Source: a virus | Virus record (IMG/VR): IMGVR_UViG_3300024262_000097 | Location: 1 to 39,227 of that record | Strand: one strand, 5' to 3' | Length of the DNA stretch: 39,227 nt | In this document: piece by piece, positions 1-39,227 of the stretch | How the letters are laid out: each line of letters opens with the position of its first letter | Position numbering within the stretch: position 1 is the first letter of the stretch | The notes under the pieces: generated by a model | What the model was told of the DNA's origin: nothing | The model's input: only the letters and a program-made list of their open reading frames with translations | Databases searched by the model: none | Position numbers and translations under genes: made by a program

Positions 1-64
1 CTGGCTTCTGGCGTTGTGCCCTTTTTCTCCATTTCGCTTTGTAACGCTCTTCGGAAGTAGTCAT
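1..64 (-). CDS. N-terminus of nested HNH endonuclease D (left copy, cut by window edge)
   Basis: The first 113 bases are identical to 38197-38309. They therefore contain the start (ATG at 64, or TTG at 79) and first 21 codons of the same HNH gene annotated at 37940-38260. The gene lies in another frame of the C5-methyltransferase. Both methyltransferase alleles therefore share this insertion. Only the basic N-terminal segment is present here. Confidence 0.6.
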   Translation of the reverse strand, partial: MTTSEERYKAKWRKRAQRQKP

Positions 65-113
65 ACGTTGGTGTTTCAATTTCTAATACGTCAGGCCAGC
101 TCATTAAGCGTTC
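1..113. repeat. Terminal repeat, identical to 38197-38309
   Basis: These 113 bases recur exactly at 38197-38309 and then diverge (A at 114, T at 38310). Together with the 62-bp match at the right end, this indicates a circular genome assembled through two alleles of the methyltransferase. A tandem duplication is the alternative. Confidence 0.95.
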
Positions 114-1073
114 ACATTCTAGTGGTGTAAGGCGACGGATTCGTGATCCGTTGTAGATACCGTGCTTGTCTTGTGTGTTTAATGTAAATGATGGCTCACC
201 GTCTTCTTTCATTCTGCGCCCATTCTGGCGTTTTGTTAACCGATCTGGTGTGAGGACTGGTATTGCATACAACCCAGTCTTTGCACCAAGACCTCCCCCC
301 AGTGCTTTCTGGCTTTTTGCTAGTCCATCACTGGCGTATATTCTTTGGGCATCTGAAACTCCTTGAGTGATTTCTTTAAGATTGTTTCCGTGGCCAGTTG
401 GCTCAAAAAATACTTCTCTGGGACTTCCTGTTCTAAAACCGACGACAAAGATGCGTTCTCTGTTTTGAGGCACACCGAAGTCTTTTGCGTTGAGTACCTG
501 CCACCACAGCTCATACCCTGCTTCGACCATTTCAGCTTGCACTTGGGCAAAGTCCCATCCTTGATTGCTTGAGAGAGCTCCTTTAACATTTTCCCAGATA
601 AAATATCTAGGTTTCTTTTCTTGCAAAGCTCTGACAAACTCGGCAAATAATCCACTCCGCTCGCCAGTGAGTCCTGCTTGCTTTCCAGCCACTGACAAAT
701 CTTGGCACGGGCTTCCACCGACAAGGAGGTCAAAATCGGGTACGTCTGCCCAGTTGATTTCTTTGATGTTGCCATAGTTTTTTGTGTTAGGGAATCTGTA
801 TTTAAGGACTGCTGATGCGTACTTGTCGATCTCGGAGAAACCAATACATATAGGTTGTCCAGAGCCACGCTCGTTAGGCTGTTCGCATAGTCTTGATTCA
901 TCACAATGCTCCAGTCCCTTATTTCCTTCATGCGAAGATTCGTTTCTCCAGCCTCGTATTTTTTTCTCATCTTCTTCCCCAGTGCATTTCGTTTCCTTTT
1001 TATTGGTTTCCATTGCATATTCTATTCCTAACTCGAAGCCACCGACTCCGCTGAATGTTGAAAAGTATTTCAT
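1..1073 (-). CDS. C5-cytosine DNA methyltransferase, allele 1 (3' end cut by window edge)
   Basis: This enzyme would methylate cytosine C5 in phage or host DNA, probably against host restriction. The start at 1073 follows a ribosome site (AGGGGAG) and gives the motif I sequence FSTFSGVGGFELGI. Further along are GGSPCQDLS (motif IV, catalytic Cys), ENVKG (motif VI), QNRERIFVVG (motif VIII) and RRLTPLECERLMSW (motif IX). Motif X lies beyond base 1. The reading frame is open for 357 codons to the window edge. The start overlaps the stop of the 43-residue upstream gene, so the two are probably co-translated. The target-recognition stretch between motifs VIII and IX differs completely from the copy at 37806-39227. 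If the genome circle closes at the 113-bp repeat, the protein is 487 residues. The family is certain; the sequence specificity is unknown. Confidence 0.93.
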   Translation of the reverse strand, partial: MKYFSTFSGVGGFELGIEYAMETNKKETKCTGEEDEKKIRGWRNESSHEGNKGLEHCDESRLCEQPNERGSGQPICIGFSEIDKYASAVLKYRFPNTKNYGNIKEINWADVPDFDLLVGGSPCQDLSVAGKQAGLTGERSGLFAEFVRALQEKKPRYFIWENVKGALSSNQGWDFAQVQAEMVEAGYELWWQVLNAKDFGVPQNRERIFVVGFRTGSPREVFFEPTGHGNNLKEITQGVSDAQRIYASDGLAKSQKALGGGLGAKTGLYAIPVLTPDRLTKRQNGRRMKEDGEPSFTLNTQDKHGIYNGSRIRRLTPLECERLMSWPDVLEIETPTYDYFRRALQSEMEKKGTTPEA

Positions 1074-1074
1074 A

Positions 1075-1562: not shown

Positions 1563-2240
1563 TTACCCCTCAAAAGGAGGCTCTTCGTACTTAGCGTGAA
1601 TAGCAGTAATCATCTCAGTGATGTTCGGGTTCTCAAGGATAACATCGAAGGCATCGTAACGATCCTTGGCCTTGTACTTAGTATCTGGTTGGACAAGCAT
1701 CTCTCTTTGACCACCTTCTCCTACTCTGAGGTGTCCAACCACATCACACATATCCACAAGCTCGCTTGATAGTTTGGTTGCCATCTTAGGGGCACGGATA
1801 AGTGCATCCTCGTCAGGTGTTTCTTCCTCGTGGGCTACGAACACGGCATGCTTACCAGAGGACTTGATAGCCCAGATAAACTCACGCATGTTCTTCTTAG
1901 CAGTTCCCCACTTACCAATGTTCATTGATCCACCACCTGACACATCATCAATAATGAGGTTCATGAACACTCCTACTGGGTCAACAACGATTGTCTCGTA
2001 CTCATCAGACTCTTGGATAAGCTTCCATGCTTCTCGCACATCTTTCCAAGAGCTGACTGCGATGTAAGGCACGTCGATACCACGGGCACGGAAGGCTTTG
2101 ACTCCTTCCTCTGAGTCGATGATGATTGGCTTGGGTGCTGTGGCTGCAAGAGTTGTCTTACCAACCCCGCCCTGTCCGTACACACAGAGCACAAGGCTAG
2201 GTGCGGTCATAGTGCTGGTTCTCTTAATCTCTACTGGCAT
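1563..2240 (-). CDS. Phage RecA-like nucleotide-binding ATPase (AAA_24/Sak4-like)
   Basis: A 225-residue P-loop ATPase. Walker A is GQGGVGKTT at residues 22-30 and Walker B is ETIVVDP near residue 82. The 'PKPIIIDSEEG' stretch after Walker A is typical of phage nucleotide-binding proteins of the AAA_24/Sak4 type. Known members act in single-strand annealing or recombination alongside an SSB, and an SSB-like gene lies divergently at 3555. The C-terminus (EEPPFEG) is acidic. The start ATG at 2240 has no clear ribosome site; the preceding gene ends 3 bases upstream. The ATPase assignment is secure and the recombination role is inferred. Confidence 0.85.
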   Translation of the reverse strand: MPVEIKRTSTMTAPSLVLCVYGQGGVGKTTLAATAPKPIIIDSEEGVKAFRARGIDVPYIAVSSWKDVREAWKLIQESDEYETIVVDPVGVFMNLIIDDVSGGGSMNIGKWGTAKKNMREFIWAIKSSGKHAVFVAHEEETPDEDALIRAPKMATKLSSELVDMCDVVGHLRVGEGGQREMLVQPDTKYKAKDRYDAFDVILENPNITEMITAIHAKYEEPPFEG

Positions 2241-2243
2241 AAT

Positions 2244-2648
2244 TTATTTGATTAGATCTTTATTTTCGTAAATGTTTCCGATGACTTCGCACTCTTTATT
2301 AAAACACCCAAGATTTCCAAACACCATCCAGTCATCGGCGCAAGCTCTGAACTCACCTTCCTTAAACTCAACTGGTAAATTATATATGTTGTATTCAAGT
2401 GTTCCTTTTAAGTCTTTTACTGTAGACAGCTCTATTTGCACTACATCCCCCTCATAGATCTCCTTACCGTTCTTATCCTTGAGTCCTGTATATTGCATTA
2501 GTTCGACACCATCTAAAAAGTAGCGTGGAGGAAGACCATCAGGAGTAACTGCATCGAGCATAACAAGACTGTAGTACAGGTCGATAGACTTTACATCAGC
2601 CATCATCTCAAAAGTTTTTTGCCAAGCTCTGAACTTTATTTCTCTCAT
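2244..2648 (-). CDS. YopX-family protein
   Basis: A 134-residue protein starting MREIKFRAW, with LMQYTGLKDKNGKEIYEGD in the middle and EVIGNIYEN at the end. This is the hallmark order of the YopX family, common in phages and prophages and of unknown function. The start at 2648 overlaps the stop of the upstream gene as ATGA, so translation is coupled. A start four codons earlier (2660) is possible but would lose the canonical N-terminus. It belongs to the early minus-strand operon. Confidence 0.9.
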   Translation of the reverse strand: MREIKFRAWQKTFEMMADVKSIDLYYSLVMLDAVTPDGLPPRYFLDGVELMQYTGLKDKNGKEIYEGDVVQIELSTVKDLKGTLEYNIYNLPVEFKEGEFRACADDWMVFGNLGCFNKECEVIGNIYENKDLIK

Positions 2649-2833
2649 AAGCTTTTCCATTTAGGTTTGACCAACTCAATGGCCTCAAGTAGCTGGCCCT
2701 CTGTTTTGATTGTCGATAGATCAATCGCATCTAGGTACTTCTGGTTCTCTATGAACTTATCGTGCAGACCACCAGTGGCTACAGCTTGTGCCGCTAGATC
2801 CCACAGGAGTACAAGAGCATCACCTTTGGTCAT
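2645..2833 (-). CDS. Hypothetical 62-residue protein
   Basis: The start at ATG 2833 (MTKGDALVLLWDLAAQ) follows the stop of the upstream gene by four bases. A longer frame from 2929 would run inside that gene and is less likely. The protein is predicted to be mostly helical, with a C-terminus KPKWKSL. It overlaps the YopX gene by four bases. No family is recognised. Position and coupling suggest an early accessory protein. Confidence 0.65.
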   Translation of the reverse strand: MTKGDALVLLWDLAAQAVATGGLHDKFIENQKYLDAIDLSTIKTEGQLLEAIELVKPKWKSL

Positions 2834-2837
2834 ATGT

Positions 2838-3209
2838 TTACATGTTAGGGCAGGCCCACCCCTCGTGATCTTTATAACAATCTCCGCAGGGGGTTGGATT
2901 ATCTGGCATGGAGTCGTCGCCAAGGTCAACTGCTTGCTGCCTCTCTACCATCTGGTCCACGTAGTCTTTGAGATGCGCGTGGCAGAGGATGTGGCCGATG
3001 GCCATCACCTCTCTATCACAGGACTTCACAGAGCATGGGATGTACTGGTAGTGAATCTTCTTCCACATGGGGGCAGCTGGGCCTAGCTTCTGTCCACGCT
3101 CCAGCTCCTCTTGTATCTCATCCTTCACATTGATGTGAGTGTGATACTTGTCTATCCGATTAAGGATCGGGGTGCAAGCAAAGTCACTCGCTGTACATTC
3201 TTTACGCAT
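2838..3209 (-). CDS. Hypothetical Cys/His-rich 123-residue protein
   Basis: The protein begins MRKECTASDFACTP and contains scattered Cys/His pairs (PCSVKSCDREV, GHILCHAH, PCGDCYKDH, WACPNM). These could bind one or more zinc ions. The middle is charged and helical. It lies between a 70-residue gene upstream and the 62-residue gene downstream, within the same early operon. No named family is recognised. Zinc binding is an inference from Cys/His spacing only. Confidence 0.65.
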   Translation of the reverse strand: MRKECTASDFACTPILNRIDKYHTHINVKDEIQEELERGQKLGPAAPMWKKIHYQYIPCSVKSCDREVMAIGHILCHAHLKDYVDQMVERQQAVDLGDDSMPDNPTPCGDCYKDHEGWACPNM

Positions 3210-3221
3210 AGAAATGATTGG

Positions 3222-3434
3222 TTATTTGTCTGTGCTCTCATCGTAGAACAGGTGGCGCACCCTGTCAACAGACTCCTGTTGAGAACCTGTGGATAAATCT
3301 AGCCAATCGTTTATTGCTGCGGTTAAACAAAGTACATTTGGAAAACCTAGTCTATTTGACTGGTTTTCAACTCCTTTGCGAAAGTGCCGCAGAATACGCA
3401 CTTTCCAGTAAAGTTTCTCGTCTTTATAAGGCAT
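3222..3434 (-). CDS. Hypothetical 70-residue basic protein, first gene of the leftward early operon
   Basis: The protein starts MPYKDEKLYWKVRILRHF at 3434 and is basic and aromatic at its N-terminus. It is the first minus-strand gene after the divergent control region at 3435-3554. The later part (SVDRVRHLFYDESTDK) is more acidic. No family is recognised. No strong ribosome site precedes the ATG. Confidence 0.6.
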   Translation of the reverse strand: MPYKDEKLYWKVRILRHFRKGVENQSNRLGFPNVLCLTAAINDWLDLSTGSQQESVDRVRHLFYDESTDK

Positions 3435-3446
3435 AGTTTTTTGTTA

Positions 3447-3484
3447 TGTTGACATGGTGCCACACCCAAGGTACTATGTCAACA
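3447..3484. promoter_or_regulatory. Divergent control region: sigma70-like promoter within a 9-bp inverted repeat
   Basis: On the plus strand TTGACA (3449-3454) and TACTAT (3472-3477) are separated by 17 bases, a good sigma70-type promoter for the replication genes. TGTTGACAT (3447-3455) and ATGTCAACA (3476-3484) form a perfect inverted repeat, so a TTGACA hexamer also points leftward toward the early minus-strand operon. Its -10 partner there is poor. A dimeric regulator could bind the repeat and switch both directions. Confidence 0.7.
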
Positions 3485-3554
3485 CGATTCACTAAGCCAA
3501 ACGCCAATGCGACTACGCCCTAAGCCCTACACTAAGAAGGAGAGAGAAAGCTAT

Positions 3555-35163: not shown

Positions 35164-35433
35164 TCACTCAATCAGTTTCTTTAGGTTTTGTGAAAACTCA
35201 CAATAGTCACACTCGTATCCTCTCGCTTCATTACACTCACACATGTAAGAAAGATTTGCCTCCTCAATAGCCCATGCGAGGTAGGATTTGAGAGCTGGAA
35301 TAAGTTTATCTTTCCCACACATCCATGCTTCTCCTTTTTTATCTGATCCATAAGACAGTTTGGTGAGAACAAAATGCTCCTCAACAATCTCCTCAAGGCT
35401 CTTTGGTTGTATAGTCATAGTTTTTTTACACAT
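35164..35433 (-). CDS. Hypothetical protein, paralogue of the previous gene (89 residues)
   Basis: It begins MCKKTMTIQPK at 35433, with GGAG six bases upstream inside a hairpin that may hide the ribosome site. It shares 'YLAWAIEE' and QNLKKLIE with the gene at 34872-35162. The middle has a Cys cluster (YMCECNEARGYECDYCEF). Its start overlaps the end of the DPPY methyltransferase. The initiation region is one copy of a 34-bp repeat that also precedes the methyltransferase. Confidence 0.72.
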   Translation of the reverse strand: MCKKTMTIQPKSLEEIVEEHFVLTKLSYGSDKKGEAWMCGKDKLIPALKSYLAWAIEEANLSYMCECNEARGYECDYCEFSQNLKKLIE

Positions 35434-37556
35434 CTTCCCCTCCAGAGAGGGGTATGTTCAATTCTCGCTTCTGCTATTTCTAAATATTCCTCGTCTAGTT
35501 CAATGCCTATAAAGTCGAAACCTTCTAGCTTTGCTGCTTTACCTGTACTCCCTGATCCCATGAAAGGGTCTAGGATTACTCCGCCTGGTTGTGTTACTAG
35601 ACGGCAGAGGTAACGCATGAGCTTTGTTGGTTTGACTGTTGGGTGGTGGTTTGCTCGTGGTTCACCTAAAGCATTTTTCCTACCCTCAGCAGGTTTACTT
35701 CTTGCACTTGCTGGAGCCTCTTTTTCTTCCATCCCCTCACACCCCTCATTTCTATCCTTCTTACTAGCCTTAGCACAGTAGAAGAAGCGAGCTGCGGAGC
35801 CTGAGTCTGCAAAATGAACACCACTCTTTATATTTGTTACATTCCTTGAAGGATTATCTTGATTTCCTTTCTCGAAATTATAACCACTTGCACTTCCTTT
35901 TTTAGTCTCAGGAAACAACCTCATCACCTCTTGGCTACCGTCGTGGATTAAATTACTAGGAAATCTTCCCTGTTTTGCGTTTGTACTTACCTCTTTTTTT
36001 GCCAGCATGAGTAAATCTCCTGTGAGCTGACACACTGACACACTGGAGATTTTCCAGTCGGTTATCATCTTTGACACCGTTGATGTGATGTATTTCAAAT
36101 CCTTTAGGGATCGCTCCATGTTCTGATTCCCAGATAAAGACATGCTCAAACTTGTGCTGATACTTTCCAGCAACATTTCTTCGGAGCATGACGTATCCAG
36201 CTTGTAGATACTTTCCAGCATCTTCCCAAGTGCTTTTTCTGAAATACTCATATCGACATTCTCGACAGCAGAAAACAACATCTTTATCACGTTGTTCGTG
36301 TCGTCTAGAAGTCTTTTCTTTTCCGCACTGTTTGCAGGTAATTGTAAATGGTTTAACTGGCATAACTGAATAATACCATTTAGGTCGCTTCCCTGCAAGT
36401 TGTACTCTGGCTTGATTCTAGTCCCATCAACATTGATTCCACCTGTTCCGTGTTTGAGTACGTTCTCTGCAACAGTTCCCTTAAAAGGCTTTCTTGCTAC
36501 TGTAATAGGCTCTAGGTTAGGGCGTAAGTCCTTTAGTCTTTCCGAGAACATAGCACTCTCTTCCGCAGAATGTTCTAGGGTGTAGTCCAACTTCATTTTT
36601 AAGGCGGTCAAAATGCTTTCCACATTGTAAACATCTGCACTCAACCCATTTATCTGGTTGTCGTCGACAGGCGTGATATTTTCCAATATGTTCTCCCACC
36701 CCAGCGATTGCAAGATTTTCAATTCGGTTGTCATGTTTAACTTCGTTGAGATGGTGGACGTGTTCTGTGCTATCCAAATCTCTACCAAGACACTTAGCCA
36801 TGACAAGACGGTGTTCAAGCTCGTATTTCCCATTGTTCCAGACCGCAACATATCCATCGCTTCTAACAAATCTTCCGCCTTTATGTTTTCGTCTGCACTT
36901 AATAGAGCAATACTTTGCTGTGTCTTTTCGTTTAGGTTTAACTCTGAACTCTTTTTGGCAATTTCTACAAGTAATGTTTGGCATATACCTACAGTATACT
37001 CCAAATCGGAACGAGTTTCAAGTGGCTTTTGAGCCACAGTGATGTCTTCATGGCTCGGCTTAAGTGCTGTTCCCCAACCTTCCCATGGTGAAGTGCCTTT
37101 GGTAATACTTCGCTCGTCTTTCAGATTATATCCACCTTGTTGACCGCCGTTACTCGCCCCTGCCGTTGGTGAGTTTCCGTCGCGTCCACCGAACTTTCTT
37201 TCCTCCAAAACACTCCTCTCATTCCCCTGCAACTTATCAACCGCCTTACCGATGTTATGAGATTTCGGGAAGCCCGACGCATAAATCCATGCAATCATAT
37301 CTCTGATCTCAAACCCTGCGTCCTCGATGTTCACTGCCATGCGGTGTTGTGTTCTTGTACCTGCAAAGCTCAGCAAGAATCCACCTGGTTTCAATACTCT
37401 TAGACACTCTTGCCATATCTCTACTGATGGAACGTCATAGTCCCACTTCTTCCCCATGAACGATAATCCGTATGGTGGATCAGTAACTACTGAGTCAACT
37501 GAGTTCTCAGGTAAGTCTTTCATTTTTTCTAAGCAATCTCCGAGTAATAGTTTCAT
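35415..37556 (-). CDS. DPPY-type DNA methyltransferase (N6-adenine or N4-cytosine) with two nested HNH insertions
   Basis: The catalytic motif DPPYG is at residues 26-30. The SAM-binding motif DPFMGSGSTG is near residue 670, so the permuted order matches beta-class enzymes. The 713-residue frame is about 300 longer than usual because of two insertions, codons ~182-345 and ~385-525, which hold HNH genes in another frame. Flanking host sequence is recognisable: ITVAQKPLE before and ITVARKPFKG after the first insertion, and QGRFPSNLIHD after the second. If fully translated, the enzyme carries two long helical inserts. The gene is bounded by 34-bp direct repeats. Confidence 0.88.
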   Translation of the reverse strand: MKLLLGDCLEKMKDLPENSVDSVVTDPPYGLSFMGKKWDYDVPSVEIWQECLRVLKPGGFLLSFAGTRTQHRMAVNIEDAGFEIRDMIAWIYASGFPKSHNIGKAVDKLQGNERSVLEERKFGGRDGNSPTAGASNGGQQGGYNLKDERSITKGTSPWEGWGTALKPSHEDITVAQKPLETRSDLEYTVGICQTLLVEIAKKSSELNLNEKTQQSIALLSADENIKAEDLLEAMDMLRSGTMGNTSLNTVLSWLSVLVEIWIAQNTSTISTKLNMTTELKILQSLGWENILENITPVDDNQINGLSADVYNVESILTALKMKLDYTLEHSAEESAMFSERLKDLRPNLEPITVARKPFKGTVAENVLKHGTGGINVDGTRIKPEYNLQGSDLNGIIQLCQLNHLQLPANSAEKKRLLDDTNNVIKMLFSAVENVDMSISEKALGKMLESIYKLDTSCSEEMLLESISTSLSMSLSGNQNMERSLKDLKYITSTVSKMITDWKISSVSVCQLTGDLLMLAKKEVSTNAKQGRFPSNLIHDGSQEVMRLFPETKKGSASGYNFEKGNQDNPSRNVTNIKSGVHFADSGSAARFFYCAKASKKDRNEGCEGMEEKEAPASARSKPAEGRKNALGEPRANHHPTVKPTKLMRYLCRLVTQPGGVILDPFMGSGSTGKAAKLEGFDFIGIELDEEYLEIAEARIEHTPLWRGRCVKKL
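35420..35453. repeat. 34-bp direct repeat, copy 1 (identical to 37560-37593)
   Basis: On the minus strand the repeat contains CCCCTCTCTGGAGGGG, a hairpin whose 3' arm is the ribosome site, followed by AAGATGTGTAAAAAAAC. Here it starts the 89-residue gene. The other copy precedes the methyltransferase. Confidence 0.95.
35956..36363 (-). CDS. HNH endonuclease B, nested in the DPPY methyltransferase
   Basis: A 135-residue protein with Cys pairs (C10/C13 and C32/C36) and a classic HNH core, IHHINGVKDDNRLENL, at residues 91-106. Its frame is shifted by two bases relative to the methyltransferase, which stays open throughout. The last codons and stop overlie the conserved host motif QGRFPSN. TTGCAG, 17 bases, TATTAT, then six bases and ATG precede it, giving an almost leaderless message. 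It is a homologue of endonuclease A in the same host gene. Likely a homing endonuclease cutting gene copies that lack the insertion. Confidence 0.88.
   Translation of the reverse strand: MPVKPFTITCKQCGKEKTSRRHEQRDKDVVFCCRECRYEYFRKSTWEDAGKYLQAGYVMLRRNVAGKYQHKFEHVFIWESEHGAIPKGFEIHHINGVKDDNRLENLQCVSVSAHRRFTHAGKKRGKYKRKTGKIS
36370..36398 (-). promoter_or_regulatory. Promoter of nested HNH gene B
   Basis: On the minus strand TTGCAG (36398-36393), 17 bases, TATTAT (36375-36370). The ATG (36363) begins six bases after the -10 box, which predicts a leaderless transcript. Confidence 0.6.
36517..36984 (-). CDS. HNH endonuclease A, nested in the DPPY methyltransferase
   Basis: A 155-residue protein. 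N-terminal Cys pairs (C6/C9 and C26/C30), then the HNH core HVHHLNEVKHDNRIENL around residues 75-91, and a C-terminal zinc-like segment (CRCLQCGKHF ... CGREC). It is offset by two bases from the methyltransferase, as is B. Its stop lies in the host codons for RPN, just before the conserved EPITVARKPF. TTGAAA, 17 bases, TATACT precede the ATG by eight bases. Strongly homologous to B, so the two probably arose by duplication or repeated invasion. Confidence 0.9.
   Translation of the reverse strand: MPNITCRNCQKEFRVKPKRKDTAKYCSIKCRRKHKGGRFVRSDGYVAVWNNGKYELEHRLVMAKCLGRDLDSTEHVHHLNEVKHDNRIENLAIAGVGEHIGKYHACRRQPDKWVECRCLQCGKHFDRLKNEVGLHPRTFCGRECYVLGKTKGLTP
36993..37021 (-). promoter_or_regulatory. 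Promoter of nested HNH gene A
   Basis: On the minus strand TTGAAA (37021-37016), 17 bases, TATACT (36998-36993). Each hexamer matches consensus at five of six positions. It lies inside methyltransferase coding sequence. Confidence 0.7.
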
Positions 37557-37559
37557 ATT

Positions 37560-37593
37560 GTTTTTTTACACATCTTCCCCTCCAGAGAGGGGT
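37560..37593. repeat. 34-bp direct repeat, copy 2, ahead of the methyltransferase
   Basis: Identical to 35420-35453. On the minus strand its ATG starts a six-residue peptide, MCKKTI, whose TGA overlaps the methyltransferase ATG at 37556. The repeat therefore provides a leader peptide and translational coupling. Confidence 0.9.
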
Positions 37594-37805
37594 GGTTGCA
37601 ACACCTCCAGTGTTACATGCCAGCAAATTGTTTCTCCTGGTCAGGAGGGGGAGAGGTGCAATTCCTACCCCCTGCTCCCCAGTAAACTGAGGGCAAGGAT
37701 TAGTTGGGTAATCAATCCAACTAAGACCGAATCAATCCTGCTGCGGTGCAATAACCTTTCTAAATTAGTTATGTTGAGATCCGCAGGCAGAGGGAAGGAG
37801 GGGAG
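37594..37805 (-). other. Structured leader between the two methyltransferase genes
   Basis: No robust gene is seen. On the minus strand several hairpins follow each other: TTAGTTGG/CCAACTAA (37700-37724), CTCCTG/CAGGAG (37634-37647) and AACAC/GTGTT with TGGAG in the loop (37600-37614). The RBS hairpin of the 34-bp repeat comes next. Repeated GGA motifs sit in or beside the loops. This could be a regulatory leader of the DPPY methyltransferase. A short hydrophobic TTG-start frame is too weak to call. Confidence 0.5.
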
Positions 37806-39227
37806 TTATTCCCCGATAACTTCTTTCATTAAATGTTTAACCACCTCACTCACAACACCATTCCCACACATCTTGTACCTTTGCGTGTCGCTTATCTCTT
37901 TCACTTCTCCATCAAAATCTCCGTACTGAGTCCAACCACTTATCCGTGCCAACGTCTGTTCGCCGAACGGAGACTCGATTCCGCTAGACATTCTGGTTTC
38001 CCACAGAGCTTTGATCTCCTTCGACGCTTCGGTTGAAAGACCAAACCACAGATTACACATTCCGCCTTCGGTGCTCCCCTGTGTATTTTTAGATGACATG
38101 AGCCACACACCACCTGTATTTTCTCTGGGTCGTTCAATATGTCTGGATGGTGTCTGACAAGACTCTCTGTTCGCCCGCAAATCTCGCAAGATTCTACTGG
38201 CTTCTGGCGTTGTGCCCTTTTTCTCCATTTCGCTTTGTAACGCTCTTCGGAAGTAGTCATACGTTGGTGTTTCAATTTCTAATACGTCAGGCCAGCTCAT
38301 TAAGCGTTCTGCCTCTAAGGGTGTCAATCGTCTAATTCTTGAACCTCGCAAAATTGATTGTGTTTTATCTTGTGAGGGCTCCCCCACTTCTTGAACCTCT
38401 GACTGTGTTTGTCGCAGTACCCGTTTCGCCTGTGTAGCTTCTCGCAGGTCTGGACTTTGCACCTTGGTCGTTTGCTGTGTTCCTTCATGTGGCAACTCCG
38501 ACAAACCTCCTCCAGATTCTCCTTTCGATTGTCGTGCCAGTCCTCGTTCTTGTGATGTATCTCTGTCTTCTTTTCTATCTTGCAAACACAACAAACATTC
38601 GTCTTCTGTCCGAAGTTTCGTCTGGCTCTCCAGTGTTCTGTCATCCAATTTGCTTTCTTTTCCATGAGTGCATGATACCATTCTCGATGAGTTTTTACAA
38701 GCCACAAACGGTTGTCTGTTACCTCCCTGCATAGTGTTAAGCGTTGGGCTTATACCCTCATCTGAGTACACTTGGTCGTTGCTGTGGCGTGGTTTGTTTA
38801 TTTGGACAATATCTTGGTTATCTGCTTCTCGCTCAAAAAATACTTCTCGTCCACCTCCGTTTCTAGTACCGACGACAAAGATGCGTTCTCTGTTTTGAGG
38901 TACACCGAAGTCTTTGGCGTTGAGAACTTGCCACCAGAGAGAATACCCTGCTTCGGAAAGCGCAATTTGGATGTTGGCAAAGTCCCATCCACCTCTGCTA
39001 GACATAACCCCCTTAACGTTTTCCCAGATGAAATACTTAGGTTTTTTCCTTTGCAAGCAGAGTAGGTAGCTACTAAATAATCCACTTCGTTCTCCATCAA
39101 GTCCTGCTCGCTTTCCAGCAATGCTAAAGTCTTGGCAAGGGCTTCCACCGACGAGCAGATCAAAGTCGGGTACGTCTGCCCAGTTGATTTCTTTGATGTT
39201 GCCATAGTTTTTTGTGTTAGGGAATCT
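37806..39227 (-). CDS. C5-cytosine DNA methyltransferase, allele 2 (5' end cut by window edge), with two nested HNH genes
   Basis: The frame is open from the right edge for 473 codons. It contains GGSPCQDFS (motif IV), ENVKGVMSS (VI), QNRERIFVVG (VIII), RRLTPLEAERLMSW (IX) and CGNGVVSEVV (X). Motif I lies beyond the edge. If the circle closes at the 62-bp repeat, the start is ATG 1073 and the protein is 565 residues. Two insertions are present: one between the target-recognition region and motif IX, and one between motifs IX and X. Each holds an HNH gene in another frame while the host frame stays open. The target-recognition region differs from that of allele 1. Confidence 0.93.
   Translation of the reverse strand, partial: RFPNTKNYGNIKEINWADVPDFDLLVGGSPCQDFSIAGKRAGLDGERSGLFSSYLLCLQRKKPKYFIWENVKGVMSSRGGWDFANIQIALSEAGYSLWWQVLNAKDFGVPQNRERIFVVGTRNGGGREVFFEREADNQDIVQINKPRHSNDQVYSDEGISPTLNTMQGGNRQPFVACKNSSRMVSCTHGKESKLDDRTLESQTKLRTEDECLLCLQDRKEDRDTSQERGLARQSKGESGGGLSELPHEGTQQTTKVQSPDLREATQAKRVLRQTQSEVQEVGEPSQDKTQSILRGSRIRRLTPLEAERLMSWPDVLEIETPTYDYFRRALQSEMEKKGTTPEASRILRDLRANRESCQTPSRHIERPRENTGGVWLMSSKNTQGSTEGGMCNLWFGLSTEASKEIKALWETRMSSGIESPFGEQTLARISGWTQYGDFDGEVKEISDTQRYKMCGNGVVSEVVKHLMKEVIGE
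37940..38260 (-). CDS. HNH endonuclease D, nested in the C5-methyltransferase
   Basis: A 106-residue protein from ATG 38260; a TTG at 38275 is possible. CEICGRTESLVRHHPD and CGSCHLKIH form the HNH core. A second Cys set (CVICGLVF, CGKPEC) follows in a basic region. It is offset by one base from the methyltransferase, the same offset as C. Its stop sits just before the conserved host segment SGWTQYGDF. No clear promoter is seen immediately upstream, unlike A-C. The start of the same gene is also present at the left end of the window, so both alleles carry it. Confidence 0.82.
   Translation of the reverse strand: MTTSEERYKAKWRKRAQRQKPVESCEICGRTESLVRHHPDILNDPEKIQVVCGSCHLKIHRGAPKAECVICGLVFQPKRRRRSKLCGKPECLAESSLRSANRRWHG
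38324..38665 (-). CDS. HNH endonuclease C, nested in the C5-methyltransferase (allele 2 only)
   Basis: A 113-residue protein from ATG 38665. A TTG at 38707 is open but lies in or before the promoter. NVCCVCKIEKKTEIHHKNED ... NRKENL ... CRSCHMKEH is a complete HNH core. A second zinc-like segment follows (PRCKVQTCEKLH, GYCDKH). The last codons overlie the host motif GSRIRRLTP. TTGTAA, 17 bases, TATCAT and six bases precede the ATG. The left methyltransferase copy lacks this insertion, which gives a direct occupied/empty comparison. Confidence 0.87.
   Translation of the reverse strand: MEKKANWMTEHWRARRNFGQKTNVCCVCKIEKKTEIHHKNEDWHDNRKENLEEVCRSCHMKEHSKRPRCKVQTCEKLHRRNGYCDKHSQRFKKWGSPHKIKHNQFCEVQELDD
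38672..38700 (-). promoter_or_regulatory. Promoter of nested HNH gene C
   Basis: On the minus strand TTGTAA (38700-38695), 17 bases, TATCAT (38677-38672), then six bases to the ATG at 38665. The layout is the same as for gene B. Confidence 0.6.
39166..39227. repeat. Right-end repeat, identical to 736-797
   Basis: These 62 bases match 736-797 exactly, both within the methyltransferase coding sequence before motif IV. The mismatch at 39165/735 marks where the two alleles diverge. Confidence 0.95.

Follow-up and report, generated by a model that had tools for sequence, protein, structure and literature searches.

Organization of the methyltransferase locus

The window analyzed in this study is the whole 39,227-nucleotide stretch of the IMG/VR virus record IMGVR_UViG_3300024262_000097. 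Two DNA methyltransferase (MTase) genes on its minus strand each enclose two HNH endonuclease genes on the same strand in another frame, which agrees with an earlier reading of this DNA made from the letters alone (the sequence-only reading). MTase1 (35415..37556, 713 aa), which hosts HNH2 and HNH1, was identified as an N6/N4 DNA methyltransferase by its match to PF01555 (N6_N4_Mtase, E 4e-35), by phrog_67 and by alignment with insert-free homologues; its catalytic motifs TDPPYG and DPFMGSGSTG are intact. HNH2 (36517..36984, 155 aa; HNH_3, PF13392) is a ShiLan-type HNH protein with zinc-binding cysteine pairs and is read in frame f+2 of MTase1. The approximate extent of the surrounding insert 2 (36514..37046, aa 171-348) was derived from alignment with four loci (L009, L010, L059 and L063) and from the block edges in relatives, and alignment with insert-free relatives placed the insert at the conserved motif ALKPxxE^PI. 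The first ten residues of the insert, DITVAQKPLE (37017..37046, aa 171-180), constitute an element-borne mimic that resembles the host segment 3' of the site and overlaps a predicted β-strand at aa 168-176. The host's own copy of the mimicked segment, NLEPITVARKPF (36483..36518, aa 347-358), lies downstream of insert 2, and the HNH2 stop codon is located at the edge of this copy. HNH1 (35956..36363, 135 aa; HNH_3, E 2e-17), also in frame f+2, occupies a variable stretch of MTase1 between GTRI and GRFPSN; the host frames of its embedded relatives L262 (80% identical) and L263 are likewise open. We additionally noticed by eye that a stretch of approximately 34 nt, TTTTTTTACACATCTTCCCCTCCAGAGAGGGGT, is present in two places, at the 3' end of MTase1 (35420-35455) and directly before its start codon (37560-37596); this is possibly a duplication or recombination edge.

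MTase2 (37806..39227, minus strand) is a C5-cytosine DNA methyltransferase (PF00145, DNA_methylase, E 2e-53; phrog_116) whose 5' end is cut by the window edge. The motifs PCQ, ENV, QNRER, RRLTPLE and CGNGVV are intact, and the gene hosts HNH4 and HNH3, both in frame f+1. HNH4 (38324..38707) encodes 127 aa from a TTG codon, or 113 aa from the ATG at 38665, and lies directly upstream of motif IX; its score against HNH_3 was 23.5 bits, below the cut-off of 24.8. HNH3 (37940..38275) encodes 111 aa from a TTG codon, or 106 aa from the ATG at 38260, and showed a weak Pfam match (E 0.07) and a match to the phage endonuclease family phrog_2340 (E 1.6e-5); it also aligns with HNH4. The HNH3 ORF accounts for 97% of insert 3 (37938..38285, aa 315-430), which lies in the C5 fold between SWPD and GWT, and the same site reads SWQD-DWTKYG and SWPD-DWTKYG in the insert-free loci L089 and L091, respectively. 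Relatives of MTase2 in viral contigs were sought with its N-terminal part; a search with the whole of MTase2 gave 0 matches because the peptide patterns used lay mostly inside the inserts.

A partial second copy of insert 3, with approximately 24 nt of flank, was found at 1..113 on the minus strand, within another C5 MTase that leaves the left window end (1-1074, minus strand). The two copies agree at all 113 nt across the start of insert 3, and a further stretch of approximately 60 nt, at the right contig end, also matches the left-end copy exactly, whereas the MTase stretch upstream of the identical 113 nt has clearly diverged. The left-end MTase has a different target-recognition region and is devoid of HNH4. 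The two C5 MTases are either tandem paralogues or two alleles of a circular genome that was assembled as linear.

Host-frame stop codons in embedded and free-standing HNH genes

No stop codon was found in the host frame through any of the four HNH genes, as the sequence-only reading had stated. The expected number of stops was computed by keeping each HNH protein fixed and shuffling its own codons among synonyms. This number, with the probability of observing none, was 1.3 (P = 0.19) for HNH1, 2.2 (0.008) for HNH2, 4.4 (0.002) for HNH3 and 7.7 (<0.0003) for HNH4. The open frame of HNH1 by itself is unremarkable because of its probability of 0.19; for the four genes pooled, 15.7 stops were expected and 0 were observed (product P <1e-9), so the proposal that four such frames would hardly stay open by chance was borne out jointly, but not for HNH1 singly.

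Relatives were then considered, which had been picked from viral contigs by HNH similarity, blind to the host frame. The host frame contained 0 stops in 52 distinct embedded HNH2-type genes, against approximately 90 expected by codon shuffling (the embedded-set totals minus L188 and L220), and 0 stops in 12 HNH3/4-type genes (frame f+1), against 66 expected; since the embedded loci are related, these counts do not represent independent events. In sharp contrast, 30 free-standing relatives contained 136 stops, with 134 expected. One gene, L188, is free-standing yet is tentatively placed among the embedded genes in the tree, and it contained 13 stops against 12.9 expected; apparently, it is an escaped copy. 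Openness of the host frame is thus a property of embedded genes and not of HNH genes generally, and this contrast supports the earlier suggestion that the open frame is selected.

Selection on the two reading frames

With a dNN/dSN of 0.16-0.42, the HNH frame shows ordinary purifying selection. In the host frame within the insert, dNN/dNS was 0.38 in the closest pairs and up to 0.76-0.82 in distant pairs, and a mock frame in the free-standing genes gave a value of 0.83. At fourfold sites, the ratio of observed differences to those expected from composition was 0.87 in embedded HNH genes (35-60% identity) versus 0.98 in free-standing ones, a modest degree of conservation. Neither the fourfold sites nor the overlapping-gene dN/dS demonstrated that the amino acids of the host frame are strongly selected, and this claim was abandoned; the constraint that was seen could hardly be told apart from that of the mock frame. 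The host-frame peptide of the insert is mainly kept stop-free, and the constraint on its letters is at most weak. The claim of selection on both frames therefore holds with respect to stop avoidance, but it reduces to a weak effect with respect to amino acids.

We also compared the two ends of N6/N4 MTases in inserted alleles. In the N-terminal part, the median pN was 0.30, with a pS of 0.81; in the C-terminal part, which is read only past the insert, pN was 0.35 and pS was 0.79. The MTase cores of inserted alleles are under purifying selection at both ends, with the distant pairs saturated and some of this selection possibly predating insertion.

Mobility and distribution of the elements

HNH2-type inserts were 92-99.8% identical in nucleotide sequence between MTases whose flanks were only 45-85% (mostly 50-75%) identical. 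The identity of the inserts lies far above that of their flanks, which indicates that the inserts move. In three pairs compared base by base, the block of identity had sharp edges, starting at approximately the KPAxE codons and ending at approximately the xEP codons; the 5' mimic of the downstream host segment is therefore part of the mobile unit. Less divergence in the element than in its host was seen for the HNH2-type relatives and, through the partial left-end copy, for HNH3. The elements thus behave as mobile, in line with the designation of these genes as homing genes, and we infer cleavage and homing themselves.

All HNH2-type hosts were N6/N4 MTases, nearly all of them with the insertion at one site, and the hosts of HNH3/4-type genes that could be classified were C5 MTases. 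The distribution of the elements is patchy, and the HNH2-type element was also present on two contigs of cellular genomes, one from a betaproteobacterial MAG and the other from a Woesearchaeota bin. Two HNH genes were nested at separate sites in several N6/N4 MTases (L219, L225, L233, L194, L202, L004 and L216), which reach 1152 aa, and some of these double-nested MTases mixed f+1 and f+2 HNH genes in one host gene.

Comparison with known systems

The ShiLan domain was published in 2023 (PMC9957025) and was recognized as an out-of-frame HNH in a mycobacteriophage methylase by Arsenault (Genes 2025;16:178; PMC11855218). HNH2 is homologous to this protein, the HNH within ShiLan gp65 (42% identity over 99%), and the strategy, which the sequence-only reading had regarded as perhaps undescribed, is therefore already in print. 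The annotated relatives of HNH2 with near-full coverage were from ShiLan and other mycobacteriophages (41-44%) and from one cyanophage MTase (53%). HNH2 and the ShiLan HNH share the relative frame, the homologous MTase site and the mimic of the downstream segment, as well as a disjunct distribution and the lack of an intron or intein. All four window genes share with the ShiLan type that they are HNH genes in a phage methylase, on the same strand, in another frame and in phase, with the host frame open. The published study covered a few actinobacteriophages, without a selection test, and found no ribosome-binding site (PMC11855218), whereas the present elements come from another phage group, with four in one genome, and here selection was measured and Shine-Dalgarno sites were found.

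Searches with HNH3 and HNH4 gave no ShiLan match, nor was there one among the best 40 of 267 records for HNH1, and these three genes sit at sites other than that of ShiLan. HNH1, HNH3 and HNH4 represent the same strategy in other lineages. Pacc40 gp60, a helicase-methylase, also has an out-of-frame HNH insertion (PMC11855218); judged by its published description, it shares the strategy, but both the HNH and the methylase host are different. The only relative of HNH4 in an annotated phage was an unannotated HNH ORF enclosed by the C5 MTase gene of Staphylococcus phage CUB-EPI_14, with the same host class, the same frame (f+1) and the same position before motif IX. Mycobacterium phage Constella has an annotated overlap of HNH and C5 MTase genes, but this is in f+2 and involves another HNH type. 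Neither nested ORF was discussed in the papers we found. HNH3 and HNH4 constitute a second lineage, in C5 MTases and in the other relative frame (f+1), and no description of this lineage was encountered in the literature searched, which covered few subscription papers or preprints.

Homing endonucleases of introns and inteins, such as I-HmuI and the LAGLIDADG inteins, are likewise genes within conserved genes that spread by homing. Unlike these, the present elements have no ribozyme or protein-splicing domain (a Pfam search for a Hint splicing domain in MTase1 and MTase2 gave no match), and the insert would be expected to stay in the product. A homing gene within a coding sequence that involves no splicing, with persistence of host function, is known from mobE in nrdA of phage Aeh1. 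In that genes-in-pieces arrangement, the host is split into two polypeptides, whereas one continuous frame is present here.

Predicted structure and translation starts

The model of HNH2 in the HNH frame had a pLDDT of 82, and its best PDB match was I-HmuI, although this match was marginal (E 0.02, probability 0.92); by sequence, the ShiLan-type profile matched no solved structure. In the host-frame model of MTase1, much of the core had a pLDDT of 66-94, and most of both inserts had values of 30-50. A strand was predicted at aa 168-176, comprising the site and the mimic, but none in the host's own copy downstream of the insert. This partly low-confidence model suggests that the mimic takes the place of the host strand. 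Resemblance of the first insert residues to the host segment after the site is present for HNH2, and no duplication or mimic was seen in alignments at the HNH1, HNH3 and HNH4 sites.

A Shine-Dalgarno core was located 3-10 nt upstream of 26 of the 44 distinct embedded HNH2-type starts, compared with a mean of 5.2 and a maximum of 14 in shuffled controls and with 7% of internal ATG/GTG codons. Strong Shine-Dalgarno sites were also found in several HNH3/4-type relatives. In ShiLan (L082, near 2480-2500), GGAGG precedes by 4 nt a GTG with which the conserved part of the hidden HNH begins. The published 195-aa ORF starts at another GTG, 26 codons further upstream, and it is the downstream GTG at which the HNH family alignment begins. 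On this sequence evidence, the published claim that ShiLan has no detectable ribosome-binding site should be revisited. The sites before the window's own four HNH starts are weak or badly spaced, and internal initiation is therefore best supported in the relatives. Programmed frameshifting into the HNH frame was rejected for the relatives, many of which have their own Shine-Dalgarno starts; it could still serve HNH1 and HNH3 of the window. Ribosomal bypassing over approximately 500 nt, which was considered on account of the flanking repeat, was rejected because it would not need an open host frame.

Interpretation of the overprinted HNH genes

Taken together, the four HNH genes are very probably unspliced homing elements of the ShiLan kind that spare their host gene by overprinting and add a tolerated spacer to its product. 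Each element would consist of little more than a gene for the endonuclease that has entered a phage MTase gene in phase, at a position that is either conserved or tolerant. The endonuclease would be read from its own internal start in the other frame, in many relatives presumably by means of a Shine-Dalgarno sequence within the host coding sequence. As inferred from the distribution and the family, it would cut empty alleles, whereupon repair would copy the element in. The host gene would survive owing to the absence of host-frame stops from the endonuclease gene, and the MTase would be made with an insertion of 110-180 residues, in which the HNH2-type mimic probably completes the local β-strand and the rest loops out. 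The use of both frames, as put forward in the sequence-only reading, is thus supported, and none of the available tests gave a sign of splicing. For its further claim of working MTases that bear spacers, the intact motifs and the purifying selection in the N6/N4 class are in favor, and the MTases are presumably active.

Phage group I introns often harbor HNH genes, and the inserts might accordingly be self-splicing group I or group II introns in which the open host frame is incidental. The 5' mimic is also reminiscent of the exon-like stretch with which some introns start, according to the ShiLan authors (PMC11855218). We regard this explanation as highly improbable, given that no Rfam intron family was detected at gathering or relaxed thresholds, and that the HNH ORF fills insert 3 almost entirely and most of insert 2, which therefore leaves no room for a ribozyme core. 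Moreover, a spliced intron needs no open host frame, yet the embedded genes avoid host-frame stops. Chance deserves practically no credence as the source of the open frames. It would apply if the f+2 frame of HNH genes rich in Cys, His and Lys were poor in stops anyway, and f+2 indeed expects fewer stops than f+1 in most genes, with HNH1 being compatible with chance, but the joint probability for the window's genes and the contrast between embedded and free-standing genes refute it.

Phage MTases are often dispensable, and the inserts could inactivate them, with the frame kept open only for passage of ribosomes in the host frame and expression of the endonuclease. The insert peptides are long and poorly structured in the model, and the MTases of L190 and L191 seem to be partial or in decay, which would fit inactivation. 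We nevertheless consider it unlikely, because the catalytic motifs of the window MTases are intact and both MTase ends of inserted alleles, including the C-terminal end, are under purifying selection, even if some of this may predate recent insertions. Conversely, the host-frame spacers could be selected domains that add an MTase function such as target recognition, to which the location of HNH4 within the target-recognition region and the lower fourfold-site ratio of embedded genes would correspond. This is very unlikely, since the host-frame dNN/dNS of distant pairs is about that of the mock frame, the model confidence of the spacers is low and the elements are patchily distributed.

Wider occurrence of overprinting

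Out-of-frame HNH ORFs were also observed inside inteins. One Hint (intein) gene (L266, 766-3754; L265 is the same) contained an HNH ORF of 220 aa in f+2 inside the intein, and the Hint intein of a terminase large subunit gene (L271, 1528-3895) contained one of 255 aa, again in f+2. In L266 and L271, 3.4 and 3.8 stops, respectively, were expected in the intein frame and 0 were found in either (P = 0.003 and 0.002), and these would be inteins with an overprinted endonuclease. With at least two HNH lineages, two unrelated MTase superfamilies, both relative frames and these two inteins, we are inclined, with some reserve, to view overprinting as a third general route, beside introns and inteins, by which homing genes are accommodated within coding sequences.

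In this route, a selfish gene would be housed in another gene without splicing by keeping the host frame stop-free, and the ShiLan type would bring along a copy of the adjoining host segment. Through the contrast between embedded and free-standing genes, what had been a few actinobacteriophage cases becomes a rule that can be measured; what is new here, for a kind of element described in 2025, is the second MTase class and frame and the evidence of selection. The elements also offer a natural system for the evolution of overlapping genes, with many loci, two relative frames and L188 as an unconstrained reference. Such overprinted HNH genes are easily overlooked by ordinary annotation.

Two further arrangements were observed. 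In Sinirhodobacter populi (L275, 753-2547), an open frame of 598 aa, with 0 stops against 4.9 expected and no match in a Pfam search, contains a ShiLan-like HNH in f+1. In Mycobacterium phage MKC-IRE-02 (L087), a ShiLan-like HNH at approximately 2500-2860 on the plus strand is antisense within an open N6/N4 MTase gene at 1947-3500 on the minus strand.
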